Shown here: positions 7,712-50,036 of the stretch, piece by piece
How the letters are laid out: each line of letters starts with the position of its first letter
Position numbering within the stretch: position 1 is the stretch's first letter
Origin: Desulfonauticus sp.
GTDB taxonomy: Bacteria > Desulfobacterota > Desulfovibrionia > Desulfovibrionales > Desulfonatronovibrionaceae
NCBI GenBank assembly: GCA_030950395.1
Contig: JAUZRP010000006.1
Location: forward strand, 1 to 64,000
Length of the DNA stretch: 64,000 bases
Direction: 5' to 3'
Position numbers and translations under genes: made by a program
The notes under the pieces: model-generated
Seen by the model: only the letters and a program-made list of their open reading frames with translations
Database searches by the model: none
What the model was told of the DNA's origin: nothing

Positions 7712-7749
7712 ATTCCCAATAACCAATTATAAACTACAAATCATCAAAC

Positions 7750-7785
7750 CATCACGGGCAGAGACATAGGTCTGCCCCTACGACA
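7750..7785. repeat. Dispersed palindromic repeat, copy 1 (GGGCAGA/TCTGCCC)
   Basis: CATCACGGGCAGAGACATAG followed by GTCTGCCCCTACGAC; stem GGGCAGA (7756-7762) with TCTGCCC (7771-7777). It is nearly identical to the copy at 23,926 and lies just 5' of the Rpn remnant. Confidence 0.85.
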
Positions 7786-7857
7786 ACTCCGTTCACAAGT
7801 TACAGTTCACCCCCATCTCAAACCTCTAAAACCTCATAATACCACCTAAGACTCTAC

Positions 7858-17782: not shown

Positions 17783-19114
17783 CTAACGAAATAAAAACAA
17801 AGAGGCAAGACCTAAAAAAGTAAAAAAAGATCCACTATCTGTTAAAGTGGTCAGAAAAATAGTTGAAGCGTGGGCTGGATCTCGGCCCAAAGCTTTTAAG
17901 ATCAGAGGAATAGAAGCCCCTGCTACTGCTCCAAAGATCATATCCAAGACCAAAGCTACTCCCATCACCATGGCCAATTTAAAATTATGAGTCCATAGAT
18001 ATACTCCAGAATAAACTAAAACAGCTACTATCAATCCATTTACAGCTCCAACCCTTGCTTCTTTAAGCACAGCTCTCCAGAATTTTTTGGGCTGAAAAGC
18101 TTCTAAAGCAAGTTGTCTAATCATAACCGCCAAAGCTTGCTGTCCTGTATTTCCTGCTTGGTTGGCTACAATAGGCATCAACACAGCTAACACAGCCATT
18201 TGAGCAATAGTGCCTTGAAAGTGATTCACCACACTAGCAGAAATAATGGAATTAAAAACGTTTAGTATGAGCCAGGGTAAACGTTTTTTAACAGAGTATA
18301 TCCAGGGAGTGTTTAAAGTTTCATCAGAGCCAGCACCGACCATAGTCTGCATGTCTTCGCTGGCCTCTTCCTGAATAATATCAATAACATCATCAACTGT
18401 AACAATACCCAGCAATCTCATCTCATAGTCAACCACAGGTATGGCCAATAAATCGTATTTACTCAACAACCGAGCTACTTCTTCCTTATCCTGATCGTAA
18501 GTCACAAAAACAAGTTGTTGGTTTCGCTCCTGCAGTAGACTATTTAAGGTTTTAGCAGGAGGACTTAACAGCAGGTCTCTTAAAGATAACACTCCAATAA
18601 GATGTCTTTGCTCATCAACAATATAGGCATAGTACGGTATTTCAATTTCTCCAGCATTATCCCTTATAAGCTGGATAGCCTGATCTGCGGTTAAATTACG
18701 ATCCAGAACCAAAATTTCGGTGTTCATCACACCGCCAGCAGTTTCTGGATCAAATTTTAAAAGATCTTTTATCCTGACAGCATCTTCTTTTTCCAAACGT
18801 TTTAATATCTTGGCTCTAACATCAGGATCCATCTCACTTAAAATATCTGTCGCATCGTCAGGAGACATCTCTTCTAATAAATCAGCAGCCACAGCAGGAG
18901 GCAAAGTGGACATAAGCTCTACCCGCTCGTGGCGTTCCATCTCAGCAATATACTGAGCACTGACTTCCAGAGGCTGGCTTAAAATAAACGCCCTTTGTTT
19001 TTCTAAGGGCAAATCTTCCAGCCTATCTGCCACGTCAGCAGGATGGAGATTGTCCACCTGAGCAGTATTAAGAGTATTTGCTTGAGTTTTGATTTCTCTG
19101 TTCTCCTTTGACAT
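17783..19114 (-). CDS. mgtE: Magnesium transporter MgtE
   Basis: The 443-residue protein has the MgtE N-terminal superhelical domain (HPADVADRLEDLPLEK, SPDDATDILSEMDPDVRAKIL), then a CBS pair including ILVLDRNLTADQAIQLIR and IPVVDYEMRLLGIVTVDDV. The C-terminal domain has about five spans with VLMPIVANQAGNTGQQALAV, the ion pore region. MgtE is a Mg2+-gated channel: cytosolic Mg2+ bound between the N and CBS domains closes it. I chose ATG 19114; the frame is also open to a TTG at 19150. The operon continues with the nitronate monooxygenase gene. Confidence 0.95.
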   Translation of the reverse strand: MSKENREIKTQANTLNTAQVDNLHPADVADRLEDLPLEKQRAFILSQPLEVSAQYIAEMERHERVELMSTLPPAVAADLLEEMSPDDATDILSEMDPDVRAKILKRLEKEDAVRIKDLLKFDPETAGGVMNTEILVLDRNLTADQAIQLIRDNAGEIEIPYYAYIVDEQRHLIGVLSLRDLLLSPPAKTLNSLLQERNQQLVFVTYDQDKEEVARLLSKYDLLAIPVVDYEMRLLGIVTVDDVIDIIQEEASEDMQTMVGAGSDETLNTPWIYSVKKRLPWLILNVFNSIISASVVNHFQGTIAQMAVLAVLMPIVANQAGNTGQQALAVMIRQLALEAFQPKKFWRAVLKEARVGAVNGLIVAVLVYSGVYLWTHNFKLAMVMGVALVLDMIFGAVAGASIPLILKALGRDPAHASTIFLTTLTDSGSFFTFLGLASLFLFR

Positions 19115-19192
19115 GGCGCTTGACTTAAACCAAAAACTCTCTGAGGTCAAAAAATATTTTGCTTACAATTTTTTAGCCTTTAAAAACAAACC

Positions 19193-23848: not shown

Positions 23849-23925
23849 CTAACACTCCTACTATTTATAAAGATTTTGATATACAATTTTTTAAATTCGA
23901 AACAAAAAACTATATCTTTCCTAAG

Positions 23926-23958
23926 CATCACGGGCAGACACATAGGTCTGCCCCTACT
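23926..23958. repeat. Dispersed palindromic repeat, copy 2 (GGGCAGAC/GTCTGCCC)
   Basis: A perfect 8-bp stem GGGCAGAC (23932-23939), loop ACATAG and GTCTGCCC (23946-23953). The flanks CATCAC and CCTAC match copy 1 at 7,750. Confidence 0.88.
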
Positions 23959-23975
23959 TGTTATTATATGTAAGA

Positions 23976-24004
23976 TTTCGGGCGAGCGCCCATCGCCCCT
24001 ACGA
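23976..24004. repeat. Related palindromic repeat (GGGCGA/TCGCCC variant)
   Basis: GGGCGA (23980-23985), GCGCCCA loop, TCGCCC (23993-23998), ending CCTACGACC like copy 1 of the GGGCAGAC family (CCTACGAC). Stem sequence differs but layout and right flank are shared, so it looks like a subfamily member. Confidence 0.65.
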
Positions 24005-24009
24005 CCAAT

Positions 24010-24260
24010 CCCTTCACCATTCACCAATCACCCTCTATCCTCATCTAAAACCTCTACAACCTCTAGAACATCTAAAACCTCTAGAACCTTCACCCATCGC
24101 CTATAGCCTTTTGCCCCTAGCCTATCACCCTTCACCTATAAACCATCCACTATCCACCATGAACTAATCACTGCTCACTGTTCACAGATCACTGATCACC
24201 CATCACCTATAGCCCATTGCCCATAGCCCATTGCCCAACCACCAATCACTAATCACCAAT
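24010..24260. repeat. Degenerate low-complexity repeat tract (TCACCAATCAC / CATAGCCCATTGCC)
   Basis: About 250 bp without a gene is built from short imperfect direct repeats: (CCTCTAGAACATCTAAAA)n, (TCACC-AATCAC)n and (CATAGCCCATTGCC)n, which is doubled exactly near 24,208-24,238. It separates gatC from the 3' end of the DUF3782 gene and just enters that gene. Similar words recur around 7,690-7,850 beside the Rpn remnant. Confidence 0.8.
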
Positions 24261-25241
24261 GATCTTCACATCCTCTGGATCAACATACGCCTCTATGCCA
24301 AGTTTACTCGCCACTTCATAGGCCTTATTTTCTATCATTGGAGAAATTACTATCTTTTTATCTACTTTTTTTCCCTCTTTTTGCTCGTAAAACCTAACTT
24401 TTCTGTCAAATATATACATATCTGCTTTACTTACTGAAGATTTTATCTCTATAATATAAAGTTTACCATTTTTTATAACCACGTCTAATTCCACTTGATC
24501 TGGATGACCAAATACTTCTCCTGCCTCGTCATACGACAGATACCTCTCTACCTTCATGCCTGTTAGTTCTGAGAGTATATCCCTTATGGCATTTCTAAAG
24601 GCCTTTTCTGAATTAAGCCCCCATCTAGCGCCCAAGGCGCCTATGGTTTTATCTATCCTCCTATCCACTCTTTTTATCTCATCTAAGGTCTGCTGCCACT
24701 TTTTGTCTGATTCTTCTTTTAACTCCCGCCACTTTCTGTCAGACTCTTCCCATTTTTTTAACGCATAATCCCATCTCTTATCTGACTCTTCTTTTAATTC
24801 TCGCCATTTTCTGTCTGACTCTTCCCACTTCTTTAACGCATAGTCCCACCTCTTATCTGACTCTTCTTTCAGCTCTCGCCACTTTCTGTCTGACTCCTCT
24901 TTTAATTCTCTCCATTTCTTGTCAGATTCTTCTTTTAATTCCCGCCACTTCTTCTCTGACTCTTCTTTTAATTCTTTCCACTTTCTGTCAGACTCAGCCC
25001 ACTTCCTTTCTGAGTCCTCTTTTAACTCTCTCCATTTTCTGTTAGACTCTCTTTTCATGTCCTGAAGTTCTGCAAGCATTTTGTCAAACTTAGACTCTGT
25101 TTCCTGCTTATTAGCAAAACTGTTCACGAGTATCTTCCACAATACATATCTCACCTCAGGATGAGCGTCTATAATACCAGGAAGTTCATCATATATTATC
25201 CTTTTTACTTTAGTATCTAAGTCTTTGGTTTGTATAATCAC
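24249..25241 (-). CDS. DUF3782-type coiled-coil protein with PD-(D/E)XK nuclease-like domain
   Basis: The protein (about 330 residues) has a short helical N-terminal domain, a central charged helix (residues about 65-210) of repeated RKWRELKEESD units, and a C-terminal domain. The C-terminal domain shows VELDVVIKNGKLYIIEIKSS, the D...ExK pattern of PD-(D/E)XK nucleases. This is the organisation of DUF3782 proteins, whose function is unknown. GGGAG sits directly before TTG 25247 but at a normal distance from GTG 25241, so I prefer the GTG start. It could be a DNA-processing or defence-type nuclease; that is inference from the fold motif only. Confidence 0.82.
   Translation of the reverse strand: MIIQTKDLDTKVKRIIYDELPGIIDAHPEVRYVLWKILVNSFANKQETESKFDKMLAELQDMKRESNRKWRELKEDSERKWAESDRKWKELKEESEKKWRELKEESDKKWRELKEESDRKWRELKEESDKRWDYALKKWEESDRKWRELKEESDKRWDYALKKWEESDRKWRELKEESDKKWQQTLDEIKRVDRRIDKTIGALGARWGLNSEKAFRNAIRDILSELTGMKVERYLSYDEAGEVFGHPDQVELDVVIKNGKLYIIEIKSSVSKADMYIFDRKVRFYEQKEGKKVDKKIVISPMIENKAYEVASKLGIEAYVDPEDVKIIGD
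24690..25052 (-). repeat. Hendecad-coding repeat array in the DUF3782 gene
   Basis: 33-bp units encode RKWRELKEESD variants (11 residues). Two copies of a 75-bp higher-order unit encode KRWDYALKKWEESD followed by RKWRELKEESD (25 residues). An 11-residue period predicts a right-handed coiled coil. Near-identical DNA between units points to recent expansion. Confidence 0.9.
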
Positions 25242-25331
25242 ATTCAACTCCCTTTGCTCTCCCGAATAAAAAAATTTTAATCAATTCTAATAGTTATGCT
25301 AAAGTACTTTTAAATCTTTTTTTGAATTATA

Positions 25332-33660: not shown

Positions 33661-33682
33661 CAAAACCCCAAAAATAAAATTC

Positions 33683-33813
33683 AAGTGCAAAAATTATTTT
33701 AAACAATTATATACACGTTCAACGAAGAAATTTTTTGAAAAAATTTTTCCATAGTTTAAAATAGTTTAAATAAGTTACAATTTAAAAAATCAAATTTTTT
33801 GATTTTTCAGCAA
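33683..33813 (+). repeat. Dispersed TGCAAAAA element, copy A
   Basis: It starts AAGTGCAAAAATTATTTTAA and, like copy B, continues ATACACGTTCAAC; it ends AGTTACAATTT...GATTTTTCAGC. About 131 bp, the most decayed of four copies. Same orientation as the chemoreceptor gene downstream. Confidence 0.75.
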
Positions 33814-33846
33814 CATAATAATAATAATTCCTAAAAAAGATACCAT

Positions 33847-34001: not shown

Positions 34002-36065
34002 ATGTTTAAAAAGTTAAAATTTACCACAAAATTATATGGGGGGATAATCTTTACCTTAATAATGGGTGTTGTCGTTCTAACTATATTCTCTCTATATCAA
34101 TCAAAAGCATACCTCACACTTTTGGGTAAAAATTCTATTGTTTCTACTCTAGATGGAGCAATAAATACCTTAAAAATGAAAAATAAACGTATAGAGATGA
34201 AAATTAAAATAGCTTTTAATGTGTTAAGCAATGAAATAGGTACAGATAAAATTTATTTAGATCCTACTCATAAAGTAAAAATTCTTTTAAAAAATACTGC
34301 TCAAGAAATTAGTATCCCAGACTTACGCCTTGGACAAAAGAGTCTAGTTAACAATTTTGATCTAGTAGATAAAGTAAAAAATTTGATTCAATCTGAAATA
34401 TCCATTTATGAATTGGCAGGAGATAAACTTATAACAGTTTCTACTACAGAAATTGCTCCTGATGGATCAAGAAATATAGGAGATTATATTAGTAACAATA
34501 CCCCTGTTTACACTCAAATAATACAGGGAAAAACTATCAAACAAATAAAACACGAAGGTAAAAATTGGAGAGATTGGTATGTAACTATGTATAAACCAAT
34601 AAAAGACATCTCTGGGAAAATAATTGGAGCTTTAGAAATAAGTGAAAAGATCTTTACTCCAAATTTTACCCGATTTTTAGAACAAACAAAAGTAGCTGGA
34701 AAAGGTTATATTTTTATTTATGATGCCTCTAAAAACAAACAAATAATAGAACATCCAAACGTAGATCTTATTGGGCAAAGTGTGTTAAAAGTAGTCTCCA
34801 ATAATTTTAAAGATGTCACAGACAAAAACATAGTAACATATAAATGGGACAATAGCATAAAATATACTTATGTGCGTTATTTTAAACCCTGGAATTGGTA
34901 CATTTGTCTGGGGATAACAGAGGCTCAATTAACTGGTAATTTGGTGAAACAGTTATTTTTGGAAAATGTTGGTCTTGGTTTAGGTATTTTATTAATAGGG
35001 ATTATTCTAGTATTTTTTATAATAAAAAACATTTCAACTCCCTTAAAGGTAATTTCTGAAATTAGCGAAAGAGTAGCAAAAGGTGATTATAGCGTCGTAG
35101 AATTTACTTATGAGGCAGATGACGCCATTGGCAAAGTGGTTAAGGCCTTTAAAAAATTGGTAGAAGAAAGTAGAGAAATGTTACAAAGTGTACGCGCTGG
35201 CACAGAGCAGGTTTATAAGTCTTCTTTAGAAGTGAATGAAATCTCAGAAAACGTAGCTAGCAATGCGTCCAATATGAACCAAAAATCAGATATTGCTACA
35301 GAGGCCATAAAAGAAGCCGTGGATAACGTGTCTTCTATTTCTGCTGCTATGGAGCAATTAACTACCAATGCCAACACCATTGCCTCTGCAGCAGAAGAAA
35401 TGAGCGTTACTATAAACGAAATAGCAAACAATACCTCTAAAGCCAAAGACATAACCCATACTGCTGTAGAAAAGTCAAAAACAGCTTCTTCCAAGATAAG
35501 CGAATTGGGTCAGGCCGCAAAAGAGATTACCTCGGTAACAGAGACTATTTCTTCTATATCTTCCCAGACCAATCTTCTGGCTCTAAACGCCACGATTGAG
35601 GCCGCAAGAGCAGGAGAGGCAGGTAAAGGTTTTGCAGTAGTGGCCAACGAGATCAAAGAGCTGGCACAGCAAACCGCCAAAGCAACAGATGAAATTAAGG
35701 AAAAGATTCAAGGAGTTCAAAAAGTTACAGACCTAACTGTTCAAGAGATAGAAGAGATCACCACAGTGATTAACGATATGAACGAAATTGTAAACACCAT
35801 AGCCACAGCCATAGAAGAGCAGTCTGTTACTACCAGAGATATTGCCGAAAATGTCACTCAGGTATCGCAAGCTATAGGTGAAAGTAATGAGAATCTATCT
35901 AGAGTTGCCAGTTCCATGAAAAACGTGGAGCAAGACGTGCAAGAGGTAAAAGGTACGGCCCAAAAACTCAGTAGTTATAGTAACACCTTGCGGGAAAATG
36001 CAAATAACTTATCTGAGTTATCAGAGCGTTTGAAAGTGCTTATTAGTAAATTTAAAATAGATTAG
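34002..36065 (+). CDS. Methyl-accepting chemotaxis protein with dCache-type sensor
   Basis: The 687-residue receptor has a first transmembrane helix at about 12-33, a large periplasmic domain (about 35-320) with Cache-type motifs ([40 protein letters not shown]), a second helix near 330-345, a HAMP domain and a cytoplasmic signalling coiled coil. The conserved tip [20 protein letters not shown] is intact, so it should couple to CheA/CheW. The ligand is unknown; Cache domains often bind amino acids or organic acids. No other chemotaxis gene is nearby. AAGGAGG lies 6 nt before the ATG. Confidence 0.94.
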
Positions 36066-38357: not shown

Positions 38358-39551
38358 TTAGCCAAACAAATAAGACAAAAGTGCATCTCTTTCCACTACT
38401 CCCAAAACCAGACGTTTTTTTGTAAGAACTGGAAGTCTTTTTACATTATATTCCTTCATTTTTTGAATAATAGTATGCACATCATCTTCTGGCTCTACAA
38501 AATAAAACTTTTTATGGATCAAACTTTCTAGAGAAATATCTTTTTCTTTAACAAAAAACTCTTTTATTCTGTCCCACAACCCTACACTGTCCATTTTATT
38601 TTTACTAAAAAAATAATTAATTAAATCTGAATCAAAAATAAGACCACATGCTTTTTGAGCATCATCTACACACACTGCCATTTGCAAAGGATGCTCAAGG
38701 ATTGTAGTTATAATCTTATCTACAGACGTATCCAATTCAACAATAGGCACCTCACAAGCCAAATCTTTAGCATAAACTCCTTTTATTGAAGATATATTGT
38801 CAGTATGCGGTTTTATATTTGTAAAATAAAATAATATATCCGTTTTAGATATCACTCCAACGAGTTTATTTTCTTCATCTACAACAGGAAGTCTTTTTAT
38901 TTTGTTTTTGTGTAATATTTTTGTGCATTCGTTAATTGTTGATTGTGGTCCTATAGTTACAACTTCTTTGGTCATTACCTCTTCTACACGTATATCTTGG
39001 GGTATTTCTTTTTTTATTACATTTGAAATATCTTTATTTTTAAGGTTAAAATTAATAGCAACAGAAATAAGATTTAAAATGTCTCTTCCCGTTAAAACGC
39101 CTTTAAGTTTTTTATCTATATCAATTACAGGAAGAAACTTTACTTTTTTATAACTCATAAGGGAAAGTGCATCCGAAACCAAACTTTTATAGGATATAGT
39201 CACAGGATTAGATATCATAACATCTTTTACTAAAAGAGGAAAATGTAGAGTATCTTCCAAATTTATGGTAACTATAGTTCCCTGCTGGAAAAAAATTTTT
39301 ATTTTTTGGACAAATTTAGCAATTTTTTCCTGATCATCTATGATATCTATAACAATAGGCAAATCTTCTGAAAGTCTAAGTATTTTGGTGCTGTGAATGT
39401 AAGAGTTGGCTCCAAACCCCATAATACCTCGATAAACAGTAGCTCCCAAGAGATTTTGTTCTCTAGCCAGAGAAACTATTTTCTCATATACAGGCATACC
39501 GTTTGGAAGTTGATCATTTTCGCCTAAATATATCTTTAAAAGTTGTTTCAT
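38358..39551 (-). CDS. DUF190 (PII-like) protein fused to four CBS domains
   Basis: Residues 1-105 match DUF190 (LKIYLGENDQLPNGMPVYEKIV, GATVYRGIMGFGANSYIHS), a PII-like fold. Residues about 108-397 hold four CBS motifs arranged as two Bateman modules (for example VKDVMISNPVTISYKSLVSD, VEEVMTKEVVTIGPQSTINE, LPVVDEENKLVGVISKTDIL). Such domains bind adenine nucleotides. It lies 22 nt after the fluoride channel gene fluC on the same strand, and DUF190 genes commonly accompany fluC/crcB, so it may regulate or respond with the channel. Confidence 0.88.
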   Translation of the reverse strand: MKQLLKIYLGENDQLPNGMPVYEKIVSLAREQNLLGATVYRGIMGFGANSYIHSTKILRLSEDLPIVIDIIDDQEKIAKFVQKIKIFFQQGTIVTINLEDTLHFPLLVKDVMISNPVTISYKSLVSDALSLMSYKKVKFLPVIDIDKKLKGVLTGRDILNLISVAINFNLKNKDISNVIKKEIPQDIRVEEVMTKEVVTIGPQSTINECTKILHKNKIKRLPVVDEENKLVGVISKTDILFYFTNIKPHTDNISSIKGVYAKDLACEVPIVELDTSVDKIITTILEHPLQMAVCVDDAQKACGLIFDSDLINYFFSKNKMDSVGLWDRIKEFFVKEKDISLESLIHKKFYFVEPEDDVHTIIQKMKEYNVKRLPVLTKKRLVLGVVERDALLSYLFG

Positions 39552-39573
39552 TGGTATAACCCTTCAAATTTAG

Positions 39574-39954
39574 TTAAATTAACTTAGCCAAACTATAGCC
39601 AAAATATAAACAGAAAAGTCCACAAGTTATCTCTCCAAACAAATTTAATAATCCCAAGACAAATTGACCATCCCTAAATAATTGGGCACACTCAAAAATA
39701 AAAGAAGAAAACGTAGTAAATGCTCCCATAAATCCTGTCAAAATTACTATACGCATTTCTGGAGAAATGAGTAGATTTTGCTCTGCCAATTGAAAAATAA
39801 GTCCAAACAAAAAACAACCAAAGATATTTACCAAATAAGTGCCATAAGGAAAATTATGTCCCAGTATTTTATGTACCAGACCAGACAGCCAATACCTGCT
39901 CAAGGCCCCACTACCACCAAAAAGAAAAATAAGAAATACTCTTCGTAAAGGCAT
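39574..39954 (-). CDS. crcB: Fluoride ion channel FluC (CrcB)
   Basis: The 126-residue membrane protein has four hydrophobic helices and family motifs GGSGALSRYWLSG, YGTYLVNIFGCFLFG (pore Asn) and TGFMGAFTTFSSF (Na+ site and Phe-box). FluC works as a dual-topology dimer that exports fluoride. DUF190-CBS follows. No fluoride riboswitch consensus (GGTGATGG) was seen in the 65 nt upstream. Confidence 0.94.
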   Translation of the reverse strand: MPLRRVFLIFLFGGSGALSRYWLSGLVHKILGHNFPYGTYLVNIFGCFLFGLIFQLAEQNLLISPEMRIVILTGFMGAFTTFSSFIFECAQLFRDGQFVLGLLNLFGEITCGLFCLYFGYSLAKLI

Positions 39955-40024
39955 ACTTCTTCTCCTTAAAAAGAAAATAAAAATAATATAATTTTTTGTC
40001 TAGTTTTTTTTAGTTATTAAGATC

Positions 40025-40155
40025 CAACTGCAAAAATTATTTTAAGCCCTTAAATACAAGTTCAACAACGAAAATTTTTCTCTTCTTCAATAATCTAAAC
40101 GGGTTACAACTTAACAATTTAATCAAAAACACAAATTTTAGACTTTTGCAGTCAC
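40025..40155 (+). repeat. Dispersed TGCAAAAA element, copy B
   Basis: It starts CAACTGCAAAAATTATTTTA and ends GACTTTTGCAGTCAC. The ends are inverted repeats (ACTGCAAAA/TTTTGCAGT). The 3' half has GGTTACAACTTAACAATTTA then ATCAAAAACACAAATTTTAG, matching copies C and D. It lies upstream of nadC and directly abuts a nadB fragment. Confidence 0.85.
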
Positions 40156-40228
40156 TAAGAGCAAGATCAGGTAGAAAAAGTGCTTTGGGGTAGCTCCAGT
40201 CAGGAATAGAATCTAGCAAACATTTTTT
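40156..40228 (-). pseudogene. Inverted 73-bp fragment copied from nadB
   Basis: Read on the minus strand, 40228-40156 aligns with nadB positions 43506-43578 over 73 nt with 9 mismatches (about 88% identity by hand), eight of them transitions. It translates as CLLDSIPDWSYPKALFLPDLAL against RLLDSIPDWRYPKAPSLPDPAL in nadB (aligned in part). It begins exactly where dispersed element copy B ends and lies 165 nt upstream of nadC, antisense to the nad operon. Confidence 0.9.
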
Positions 40229-40356
40229 ATTGAAATCAATCCACCAGAGCCATTGAGGCAAAAATTTTCATGTAGGCTATAATTTTTTTAACACTGCTTG
40301 CTAAAAAGCCCCTGCACAGCGTTTAGCCAACCTTAGGGAACAATTATACCCTACCG

Positions 40357-40383
40357 TTGACGATTAAAGAAAAATTATATAAT
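40357..40383 (+). promoter_or_regulatory. Possible nadCAB promoter with very short leader
   Basis: TTGACG (40357-40362) and TATAAT (40378-40383) are separated by 15 nt, shorter than ideal. A transcript from here would start within a few bases of the nadC ATG (40395). No Shine-Dalgarno sequence is seen, so leaderless initiation is possible. Confidence 0.4.
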
Positions 40384-40394
40384 CTTAACAAATT

Positions 40395-41249
40395 ATGAAC
40401 ATCTTTGCAACTCTTTACCAGAAGCATAAAAATATTATTAATGATCTTTTGCATCTAGCCATAGCAGAAGATGGTAAAGACATCACATCTATTAACTTAT
40501 TCCCTGCAAACAAACAAACTAAAGCCTACATTATAGCCAAACAAAAGGGGATAATAAGTGGTTTGCCTTTACTTCCTATCATCTTAAAACAGGCCAACAC
40601 CCATCTAGACTTAAAATTTTACTTTAAAGATGGAGATAAAATAACCCCAGGGGATAAAATTGTAGAATTAAAAGGAACTGCACGAGATATCTTATTTTTT
40701 GAACGTATTTTTTTAAACTTTCTTACTCATCTTGCAGGCATATCCACTCTCACCTCCCAATATGTTCAAAAGGCTCAGCCTTATGGGGTTACTATTTTGG
40801 ATACGAGAAAAACTTTACCAGGTCACAGAATTTTAGAAAAATATGCCGTAAAAATAGGTGGCGGACAAAATCATCGCCTTAATTTAACTGATATGATTAT
40901 GCTCAAAGATAACCACATAGATCTCTACGGCAGTATAAAAAAAGCTGTGAACTGCCTATGCACCAGTATTTCGCCCTGTCCTCCTATTGAGGTAGAATGT
41001 AGCAGCCTTGCCCAAGTTCAAGAAGCTATCTCTTCTGCAGTCCAACGCATCATGCTTGATAACATGCCCATTGACCAGATAAAAATAGCCCTTAGTCTAA
41101 TACCTAAACACATAGAAACAGAAATAAGTGGAAATATAGATTTATCTAATATAGAAAAATTTGCTGCTTTAAAACCTAATTTTATTTCTGTAGGTAAATT
41201 AACTCATTCTGCACCGGCCTTAGATCTGAGTCTTAAAATATCTAACTAA
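40395..41249 (+). CDS. nadC: Nicotinate-nucleotide pyrophosphorylase (carboxylating)
   Basis: QPRTase (284 residues) converts quinolinate and PRPP to nicotinate mononucleotide. Motifs seen are LAIAEDGKDITS, ILDTRKTLPGHRILEKYAV, GGGQNHRLNLTDMIMLKDNH, IEVECSSLAQV and RIMLDNMP. First of nadC-nadA-nadB; NadB and NadA make its substrate, so the three proteins cover aspartate to NaMN. No ribosome binding site is visible before the ATG. Confidence 0.97.
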   Translation: MNIFATLYQKHKNIINDLLHLAIAEDGKDITSINLFPANKQTKAYIIAKQKGIISGLPLLPIILKQANTHLDLKFYFKDGDKITPGDKIVELKGTARDILFFERIFLNFLTHLAGISTLTSQYVQKAQPYGVTILDTRKTLPGHRILEKYAVKIGGGQNHRLNLTDMIMLKDNHIDLYGSIKKAVNCLCTSISPCPPIEVECSSLAQVQEAISSAVQRIMLDNMPIDQIKIALSLIPKHIETEISGNIDLSNIEKFAALKPNFISVGKLTHSAPALDLSLKISN

Positions 41250-41259
41250 AGGAAATTTT

Positions 41260-42258
41260 ATGCTTTCAAAAATAGTACAATTAAAAGAAAAGTATAAAGA
41301 ACACCTTACTATCTTGGCTCATCATTACCAAGCTAAAGAAATAGTACAATTAGCTGATTTTGTAGGAGATTCTTTGGAATTAGCCAGGATTATTCCCAGT
41401 CTTCACTCTAAGTACATCATATTTGCAGGCGTTCATTTTATGGCTGAGACAACTGCTGTCCTGGCTCGTCCGAACCAGCACGTTTTTTTACCTACTCCCC
41501 ATGCTTCTTGTGTAATGGCCAATACTGCTCCTTCTCATTTAGTAGAAAAAATACTATCAGAATTAAACCAATACCAACGAGTCATACCTCTAGCTTATGT
41601 CAATTCTTCTGCCAAAGTAAAGGCAATTTGTGCTAAATACAAAGGCAGTGTATGCACTTCTGCTAATGCTTCTCAAATGCTCTTATGGGCTCTTTCTCAA
41701 GGTGATGCTGTTTTATTCTTACCAGACAAAAATCTTGGATTTAATACCGCAATAAAAATTGGATTAACTCCTAAAGAAATTTCCATCTTAAAATTAAATC
41801 AAAAAATAAATATAAAAAATAAAAAACTAATACTCTGGCCAGGACTATGTGCTGTCCATTTTAAATTTAAAATAGACCACATTCAAAAGGCAAAAAGAAA
41901 ACATCCTCAAGCTAAAATTATTGTCCATCCAGAATGCTCTCCAGAAGTTGTAACTACTAGTGATGCATCAGGCTCAACTTCTTTTATAATTAATTACGTA
42001 AAAAGTGCTCCAGCAAAAGATATTATTTACGTAGGCACAGAAGAAAATTTGGTAAAAAGACTACACGATCATTACAAACCAAAAAAAACAATACTCTCTT
42101 TATTTCCAAGCTATTGCTCGAACATGGCAAAAATAAATTTAGAAAATTTATTAACCACCTTACAAAATTTGGAAACCATTTCTCCTATAACTTTATCAAA
42201 CGAGATTTGCTCTATGGCCCAACAAACCATCCAAACTATGCTCAAGGTATGTAGCTAA
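41260..42258 (+). CDS. nadA: Quinolinate synthase A
   Basis: NadA (332 residues) condenses iminoaspartate with dihydroxyacetone phosphate using a [4Fe-4S] cluster. The opening LTILAHHYQAKEIVQLADFVGDSLELAR is characteristic (shown in pieces: AHHYQAKEIVQLADFVGDS). Cluster cysteines are in HASCVMAN, LWPGLCAVH and the C-terminal part (FPSYCSNMAKINL). An oxygen-sensitive cluster suits an anaerobe. The stop codon shares one base with the nadB start (TAATG). Confidence 0.96.
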   Translation: MLSKIVQLKEKYKEHLTILAHHYQAKEIVQLADFVGDSLELARIIPSLHSKYIIFAGVHFMAETTAVLARPNQHVFLPTPHASCVMANTAPSHLVEKILSELNQYQRVIPLAYVNSSAKVKAICAKYKGSVCTSANASQMLLWALSQGDAVLFLPDKNLGFNTAIKIGLTPKEISILKLNQKINIKNKKLILWPGLCAVHFKFKIDHIQKAKRKHPQAKIIVHPECSPEVVTTSDASGSTSFIINYVKSAPAKDIIYVGTEENLVKRLHDHYKPKKTILSLFPSYCSNMAKINLENLLTTLQNLETISPITLSNEICSMAQQTIQTMLKVCS

Positions 42259-43832
42259 TGCAACGTATTTTTACAGATATTCTTATTATAGGAAGTGGAC
42301 TTTCTGGTTTAATAACAGCTCTTACTTTATCTCACTTGCCCATTCAGATCACGGTGATTACCGAAAGCTCATCTCTTGAAGAAAGCAACTCTTCCCTGGC
42401 ACAAGGAGGTATTGTCTATAAAAATCCTAAAGATTCCCCTCGTAAACTTGAACAAGATATTTTAAATGCTGGAGCAGGACAAAATTATATAAAAGCCATA
42501 CGTATTTTATGCCAACAGGGACCACAACTAATTGAAAAAATCTTATTTAACCAATTAAATATTTCTTTTACTAAAAAAAATAACGAATATTTACTTACTC
42601 AAGAAGGAGCACATAGCCTACCTAGAATCCTTTTTTGTAATGATTATACAGGCAAATCAATAATGCAAAAATTAATCCAGGCTATACAAAAAAAAACTAA
42701 CATAAACACCTTAACTGATCATCAGGCCATTGATTTAATCACCAGTCACCATCATTCTACCCTTCTAGAATTTAAATACCAACTGACTAATAAATGTCTG
42801 GGAGCCTATGTTTTGGATAAAAAGAAAAAAATAATAAAGACCATTTTAGCCCACTATACAGTATTAGCTACAGGAGGAATAGGTCAGGTATATCTACATA
42901 CGACAAACACACTAAACAGTGTTGGTTCTGGTATTAGCATGGCTTATAGAGCCGGATGCAAAATCCTAAATGCAGAGTATGTGCAATTTCATCCTACAGC
43001 CCTATTGCACATGGGACCTCAAACCTTTTTAATATCTGAAGCAGTACGGGGAGAAGGAGCCTTTTTAGTAAATCAAAAATTAGAACCTTTTATGGCCAAA
43101 TATCATTCTTTAAAAGATCTTGCCCCAAGAGATATTGTTTCTAGAGCCATTGTAGAAGAATTAAACCAACAAGAACAAAATTACGTTTATTTAAATATCA
43201 GTAAAGTAAAAAACTTTGCTACTCGCTTTCCTACCATTTATAACACCTGCAAAAAGTTACACATACCTATAGAAAAAGAACTCATTCCTGTTGTGCCAGC
43301 AGCTCACTATTTTTGTGGAGGGATATTGGTTGATCAAGATGGAAAAACTTCCCTGCCCCATCTTTTTGCTGTAGGAGAATGCAGTTGTACTGGGGTTCAT
43401 GGAGCAAATCGTCTGGCAAGCACATCTTTACTGGAAGCTCTAGTCTGGGGCTATAGGGCTGGCCAAAAAATAGCTAAATCCATCTCCAAAAATCAAACTA
43501 TCAAAAAAAAACGTTTACTAGATTCCATTCCTGATTGGCGTTACCCCAAAGCACCTTCTCTACCTGATCCTGCTCTTATTCAACAAGATTGGATAAACAT
43601 CAAAAATACAATGTGGAATTATGTAGGTATAATGAGAACTAAAAATAGATTAAAACGTGCCTTTGAAGATTTAAATACCTTAAACAAACGTATTCATGAC
43701 TTTTATAAAGAAGTTTATCCAACATCTAAATTAATAAAGTTATATCAAGCCTGTCAAACTGCATATATTGTTACTACTGCTGCCTTAAAGAATCAATCTA
43801 GCTTAGGCTGTCATTATTATAACACTAAATAA
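42258..43832 (+). CDS. nadB: L-aspartate oxidase
   Basis: NadB (524 residues) is a flavoenzyme oxidising aspartate to iminoaspartate; in anaerobes fumarate replaces oxygen as acceptor. The FAD motif is DILIIGSGLSGLITALTLS. SSLAQGGI, AEYVQFHPTALL, ISEAVRGEGAFL, PRDIVSRAI and the GECSCTGVHGANRLASTSLLE segment define the succinate dehydrogenase/NadB family. The C-terminal helical domain follows (MWNYVGIMRTKNRLKRA). Residues near RLLDSIPDW are the source of a 73-bp inverted copy upstream of nadC. Confidence 0.96.
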   Translation: MQRIFTDILIIGSGLSGLITALTLSHLPIQITVITESSSLEESNSSLAQGGIVYKNPKDSPRKLEQDILNAGAGQNYIKAIRILCQQGPQLIEKILFNQLNISFTKKNNEYLLTQEGAHSLPRILFCNDYTGKSIMQKLIQAIQKKTNINTLTDHQAIDLITSHHHSTLLEFKYQLTNKCLGAYVLDKKKKIIKTILAHYTVLATGGIGQVYLHTTNTLNSVGSGISMAYRAGCKILNAEYVQFHPTALLHMGPQTFLISEAVRGEGAFLVNQKLEPFMAKYHSLKDLAPRDIVSRAIVEELNQQEQNYVYLNISKVKNFATRFPTIYNTCKKLHIPIEKELIPVVPAAHYFCGGILVDQDGKTSLPHLFAVGECSCTGVHGANRLASTSLLEALVWGYRAGQKIAKSISKNQTIKKKRLLDSIPDWRYPKAPSLPDPALIQQDWINIKNTMWNYVGIMRTKNRLKRAFEDLNTLNKRIHDFYKEVYPTSKLIKLYQACQTAYIVTTAALKNQSSLGCHYYNTK

Positions 43833-46348: not shown

Positions 46349-46376
46349 ATACTCCTCCTACGAATAATTTAGCTAT

Positions 46377-46955
46377 TTATATTTAAAAGGTTTTTATATA
46401 CAATTTTTTTAAAATTGGGGACAGAGGACTACATATTTTATAAGTCTAGGAGCTTCATTAGGAGTCTCCCAAAAAAAAATATTCTATATCCCTAGTGAAA
46501 AGCCAATGTTAATGCAAGGATTAATTTTATCTGACATCTCAAAAAACTAGCCATCAGGCCAAAACACATCCTCATATAGCCCAAACTCAATACGTCCCAA
46601 ACCTCCATACTCTCCAGGCCAATATAAAATACGAAAAAATAAAAGACGCTTTCATCTTGCTAACCTTAAACATAAAAGGGCGTTATCTTAAAACAATCCT
46701 AACAGCAAATGCCTATGAACTCCTAGAATTAAATAAAAAAACACAAAATATTTGTTTCCATAAAAAGCGATTAACTAAACATAAGAAGCGATATCTAAAC
46801 AACGACAAAACATTTCCAAAAACTACACAACTGCCTTTGAAATTACAGAATAGTCTTAGTGCTCTTTTACTTAAAACTTAGTTGTTGGAACCCATTCATC
46901 CGCCTTAGATAAACAATTTTTCACCCTATTACCTTTTTTAAACTATTTTTATGTC
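46377..46955. other. Gene-poor interval between trpB2 and wtpA
   Basis: About 600 bp with no gene I can support. The trpB2 promoter should lie at its left end. An open frame of 74 codons at 46,657-46,881 has lysine-rich, low-complexity content, no ribosome site and no recognisable domain. A GGGGACAGAGGACTAC word at 46,426 recalls REP-associated sequences but has no partner here. Confidence 0.45.
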
Positions 46956-48801: not shown

Positions 48802-48826
48802 TTTTTCACATTTCAGAATTTAAGAT

Positions 48827-48939
48827 GTAAGTGCAAAAAACCAGAATTTGCGTTTCTGATTAAATTGCCAAGTTGTAACAACCTTAAATTGTTGAAAAAA
48901 TTTTCTCATTGAACTTCTGTCTATTTTTTGCAGTTGCAT
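48827..48939 (-). repeat. Dispersed TGCAAAAA element, copy C (inverted)
   Basis: On the minus strand it starts CAACTGCAAAAAATAGACAG and contains GTTGTTACAACTTGGCAATT then TAATCAGAAACGCAAATTCTGG, ending TTTTTTGCACTTAC. About 113 bp. The outer flanks extend the inverted ends (AAGATG on the left, CATCTT on the right), giving terminal inverted repeats of about 20 bp. Confidence 0.88.
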
Positions 48940-49049
48940 CTTTAAAAACTAATTGCAAAAATGTAAAGATAAAACGAATAAATTGTATTATTTCAGAATT
49001 TAACCCAAATAATTTAACTCTGAGTTTTTTAACTACATTAGGTAAAAAA

Positions 49050-49802: not shown

Positions 49803-49940
49803 CAACTGCATTTTTAAATCCTAATGCAAAAACTAATTCAATTAGTTAGACAAAAATTTAACAATAATTTTTTTAATAATTTAAATTTAGTTACAGCGTG
49901 GGAATTTAATCAAAAACGCCAATTTTGGGCTTTTGCGGCT
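49803..49940 (+). repeat. Dispersed TGCAAAAA element, copy D
   Basis: It starts CAACTGCATTTTTAAATCCT and ends with AGTTACAGCGTGGGAATTTA, ATCAAAAACGCCAATTTTGG and GCTTTTGCGGCTAC. About 138 bp, same orientation as copies A and B, opposite to C. It lies between wtpB and the DUF4870-like gene. Confidence 0.85.
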
Positions 49941-50036
49941 ACGTCTCTCTACTGACCTTATTTACTTCAATTTACCTATTTACTTTTATTCAAGAAAGAT
50001 ATACTTTTTGAAAAAAATTAAAAAGAAGAAGGATTT

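Follow-up and report, generated by a model that had tools for sequence, protein, structure and literature searches.

The spacer between crcB and nadC contains a short, decayed, inverted copy of a stretch of nadB, a gene that remains intact 3.3 kb away; this piece is very probably a neutral gene scrap, copied into the junction that joins the crcB-CBS region to nadC. Positions are those of the window, i.e. the whole 64,000-nucleotide stretch of DNA analysed; the features discussed are collected in Table 1.

Table 1. Features of the crcB-nadC junction and related sites (window positions)
Feature	Position	Strand	Basis
mgtE-type gene	17783..19150	-	direct divergent nadC neighbour in three relatives
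CBS-domain protein gene and crcB	38358..39954	-	adjoins nadC here, in no relative examined
MITE-like dispersed element, copy B	about 40018..40155	+	85% identity to family consensus over 40019-40155; ends compared with other copies
Element copies in the window	33675-33816, 40008-40166 (copy B site), 48814-48953, 49807-49949		many more at loci L079-L107
Decayed piece of nadB (codons ~416-441), inverted	40156..40233 (core 40156-40228)	-	64/73 in core; 87% over 78 nt, E = 3.9e-21
Junction spacer between the piece and the nadC promoter region, origin unassigned	40234..40355	.	search with 40140-40400: nadB the sole own-genome match at E <= 0.001
Retained putative nadC promoter region (TTGACG, then TATAAT-like sequence), directly upstream of nadC	40357..40394	+	promoter role predicted
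nadC-nadA-nadB operon	40395..43832	+	ORFs; same order in G001, G002, G005 and G007
Source segment inside intact nadB (L-aspartate oxidase gene)	43501..43578	+	direct comparison and genome search

The original prediction had described a 73-bp inverted nadB match of about 64 identical positions, with transitions at eight of the nine differences. Both counts were reproduced: direct comparison of 40228-40156 (minus strand) with nadB 43506-43578 gave 64 identities in 73 positions, the similarity stopping abruptly on both sides, and re-examination again found eight transitions. A search of the 2.2-Mb genome extended the match to 40156-40233/43501-43578 (87% identity over 78 nt, E = 3.9e-21), and the similarity was confirmed as real and far beyond chance. 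When the whole assembly was searched with the segment 40140-40400, nadB was the single match at E <= 0.001 besides the segment itself. Within the window, the piece and its nadB counterpart form the best and longest inverted repeat. The nadB ORF (42258-43832) is intact, its product being 70% and 63% identical to the NadB proteins of G001 and G002 (same genus), and a NadB query against genome contigs returned distant homologues only. Nucleotides 43501-43578 of nadB are thus an identifiable template, within the same genome, for the inserted sequence. Compared over this stretch with the nadB genes of G001 and G002, the piece is nearest to that of its own genome; the other two are far more different here, which rules out a relative's nadB as donor for the genomes examined. 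An origin by inversion with staggered breaks was also ruled out, since nadB is intact, and an assembly artefact is unlikely given that the two nadB copies differ at 12% of positions and the element copies by ~15-25%. A small minus-strand ORF with a TTG start (40037-40261) contains the piece and lies half within the element.

The differences between the piece and nadB have the character of decay. Five of the nine are C to T changes, and two replace proline by leucine at positions where the proline is conserved in both G001 and G002, as would be expected of a sequence decaying free of constraint. The pattern is consistent with drift and shows no trace of selection on either pairing or coding, although it comprises just nine differences.

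The gene order around nadC places the piece at a site of rearrangement. An mgtE-type gene is the direct divergent upstream neighbour of nadC in G001, G002 and G005 (the latter of the same family), whereas here the two genes are split by 21 kb, mgtE still being oriented away from nadC. The interval that now separates them is a composite, with the stretch at 20.2-38.2 kb largely colinear with contig C3 of G001 and the CBS and crcB genes (38.4-39.9 kb) matching its contig C1. In both G001 and G002 crcB and the CBS gene lie together, but on a contig other than that of nadC (C1 and C64, respectively). In G001, crcB comes after a trxB-like gene, a close homologue of which was not found in the present genome (best match 33%). 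The shifted mgtE and the composite interval together indicate that the crcB-nadC spacer is a junction that, of the genomes compared, this lineage alone has; judged by gene order, it is a lineage-specific rearrangement junction joining two unrelated regions. The order of features at the junction is a truncated ~140-bp element, the nadB piece and the retained putative nadC promoter. Microhomology is not visible on the element side, and the A-rich opposite end has been blurred by mutation. Comparison of the locus in relatives, which the original prediction had proposed as a check on a regulatory role, went against that role: the piece is absent upstream of nadC in all five examined (G001, G002, G005, G006 and G007).

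The element that borders the piece belongs to a family of ~140-bp, non-coding, multicopy sequences with terminal inverted repeats (AAGATCCAACTGCAAAA/TTTTGCAGTTACGTCTT), features that define MITEs, and the family looks like one. A profile (HMM) search returned 73 matches in ~565 kb of the genome, a sample of targeted stretches chosen around known copies. A query with the consensus detected no copy in G001 or G002; in G008, a member of another genus, it gave nothing beyond partial, weak matches. The element appears to be mobile: in locus L086 (14040-14300), on another contig, a copy splits a sequence that was left whole in a paralogous empty site at 46358-46430 of the window. Comparison of these two sites also makes a short T-rich target duplication likely. 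Copy B ends in TTTTGCAGTCAC and is followed directly by the nadB piece, while other copies end in TTTTGCAGTTACGTCTT; its 3' terminal inverted repeat lacks the last ~5 bp exactly where the piece starts. The piece had been said to start exactly at the end of copy B, and the two do adjoin, but that end is not intact. Copy B is 85% identical to the element consensus and the piece 87% identical to nadB, values compatible with a similar age for both.

The original prediction had offered as an alternative that the piece was a gene scrap captured when the element moved. The description as a scrap stands; capture found no specific support. A MITE-like element that picked up neighbouring gene pieces on transposition, of which the piece would be one example, would account for the exact adjoining of piece and copy B, and the apparent mobility of the family agrees with it. 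However, a captured piece would be expected to be enclosed by intact terminal inverted repeats. The nadB piece lies outside copy B, no second repeat of that kind was seen on its far side, and the right end of copy B is truncated. Moreover, when the 150-bp flanks of all element matches were compared with all of the ~565 kb sampled, copy B alone of the 73 adjoined a fragment of a neighbouring gene; all remaining flank matches were repeats or were short and AT-rich. Capture is accordingly held to be improbable; a rearrangement junction accounts better for the site. Other spacers of this genome also contain fragments of coding sequence, mostly from chemoreceptor (MCP) genes (L093 1416-1530 and L094 5237-5497), one of which shares 84% identity with the 3' end of an MCP gene of the window (35947-36064). 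None lies beside an element, so the genome has gene scraps elsewhere, and a link between gene scraps and the element family is unsupported.

The original prediction had also offered a regulatory reading: if transcription entered from upstream of the predicted nadC promoter, the leader RNA would be complementary to the nadB part of its own mRNA, with long-range pairing or antisense control of nadB as the outcome. In the wider form considered here, plus-strand RNA over the piece, whether part of a long nadCAB transcript (in cis) or independent of it, would pair with the nadB coding region and lower its translation or stability. A duplex of the two segments has a computed energy of -96.3 kcal/mol, so that pairing would be feasible if such an RNA existed. 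Seven of the nine differences, however, disrupt pairing with nadB mRNA (the other two being G-U compatible), and with the piece lacking in the five relatives neither conserved pairing nor compensatory change was found. Transcription is also hard to place. The TTGACG (putative -35) sequence of nadC, at ~40358, lies ~130 bp downstream of the end of the piece core (40228), and the same motif occurs at a comparable short distance upstream of nadC in G000, G001, G002 and G005; an alternative promoter candidate, TATAAT at ~40278, is downstream of the piece too. A promoter scan of 39900-40500, which would miss the TTGACG site on account of its 15-nt spacer, returned no plus-strand promoter-like site, and the genes upstream (crcB and CBS) lie on the minus strand, pointing away from nadC. 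With the predicted promoter downstream, no plus-strand site upstream and minus-strand neighbours, the piece is not expected to be part of the nadC mRNA. Leader or antisense control of nadB is accordingly unsupported and considered highly improbable. A literature search for antisense or leader control of nadB or nadC yielded no title or abstract on the subject, and an Rfam search of the leader gave nothing at the gathering score; a weak PreQ1 match was rejected, being on the opposite strand and scoring 19.4 bits where the cut-off is 39. That the piece was co-opted later, transcription from near the element reading through it to produce an RNA that pairs with nadB mRNA as a lineage-specific antisense regulator, is considered less probable still. 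The scarcely credible possibility was also weighed that the inverted pair 40156-40233/43501-43578 acts as a recombination switch that flips nadC, nadA and the 5' part of nadB. Its orientation and the 3.3-kb separation would suit such a switch, but there are nine mismatches, the longest identical run is 13 nt, and the end of nadB would be replaced on flipping. A 13-nt identical run is short for homologous recombination.

The reading favoured here is that a nadB stretch was copied as filler during repair. As a broken end or a stalled fork was being repaired close to the end of copy B, the 3' end under synthesis would have switched to a nearby nadB strand as its template; ~75 nt of nadB (the 73-78-nt stretch) would then have been copied in inverted orientation, and the copied end joined to the nadC side, with the element losing its last ~5 bp. 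The copy would since have drifted free of constraint. Template switching is the mechanism we infer from this arrangement. The piece and the join probably stem from one event, a link that is positional, so that the piece may be earlier or later than the join; its lack of function is suggested by its divergence and its absence elsewhere.

These features are reminiscent of events described in Escherichia coli, where novel junctions can carry inserted nearby sequence, template switches can be inverted and repeats occur at breakpoints (PMC3161906). As in that long-distance template switching/MMBIR, nearby sequence is found in inverted orientation at a novel junction and, like the REP sequences of E. 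coli, a repetitive element is present at the breakpoint (PMC3161906). The present case differs in that the piece is old and diverged, with no clear microhomology left, in that the inverted segment spans 73-78 nt rather than kilobases, and in that the event is deduced from gene order rather than observed (PMC3161906). The piece also resembles the pseudogene fragments and gene remnants found in the intergenic DNA of prokaryotes (surveyed in PMC522871) in being a short decaying coding copy in a spacer; unlike those, it is only 73-78 nt long and its source gene is intact 3.3 kb away. The neighbouring element is similar to the Tn3-derived TIMEs (PMC4133298) and to the MITEs of Pseudomonas syringae (PMC3189936) in being short, non-coding and multicopy with terminal inverted repeats; the nadB piece, however, is not inside the element. 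The piece looks like debris of repair and not like an RNA regulator, and is of little importance in itself. It is, however, a clean example of what seems to be an antisense leader but is better accounted for as breakpoint debris beside a dispersed repeat. Were it transcribed, it would show a repair accident creating an antisense regulator at once.

Some further sequences were noted in the window. An imperfect palindrome (TAGGGAACAATTATACCCTA, 40335-40354), which might be an operator, lies just 5' of the nadC TTGACG and has a counterpart in G002 (AGGGATTCTTTCCCT). Another family of dispersed non-coding repeats (GCATCACGGGCAGA...CATAGGTCTGCCCCTAC and relatives) occurs at 7712-7812 and 23907-24260, and also in L079, L086, L087, L099, L102 and L107. 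The ORF at 24249-25247 contains in-frame repeats of 33 and 75 nt (24696-25073; WRELKEESDRK-type).
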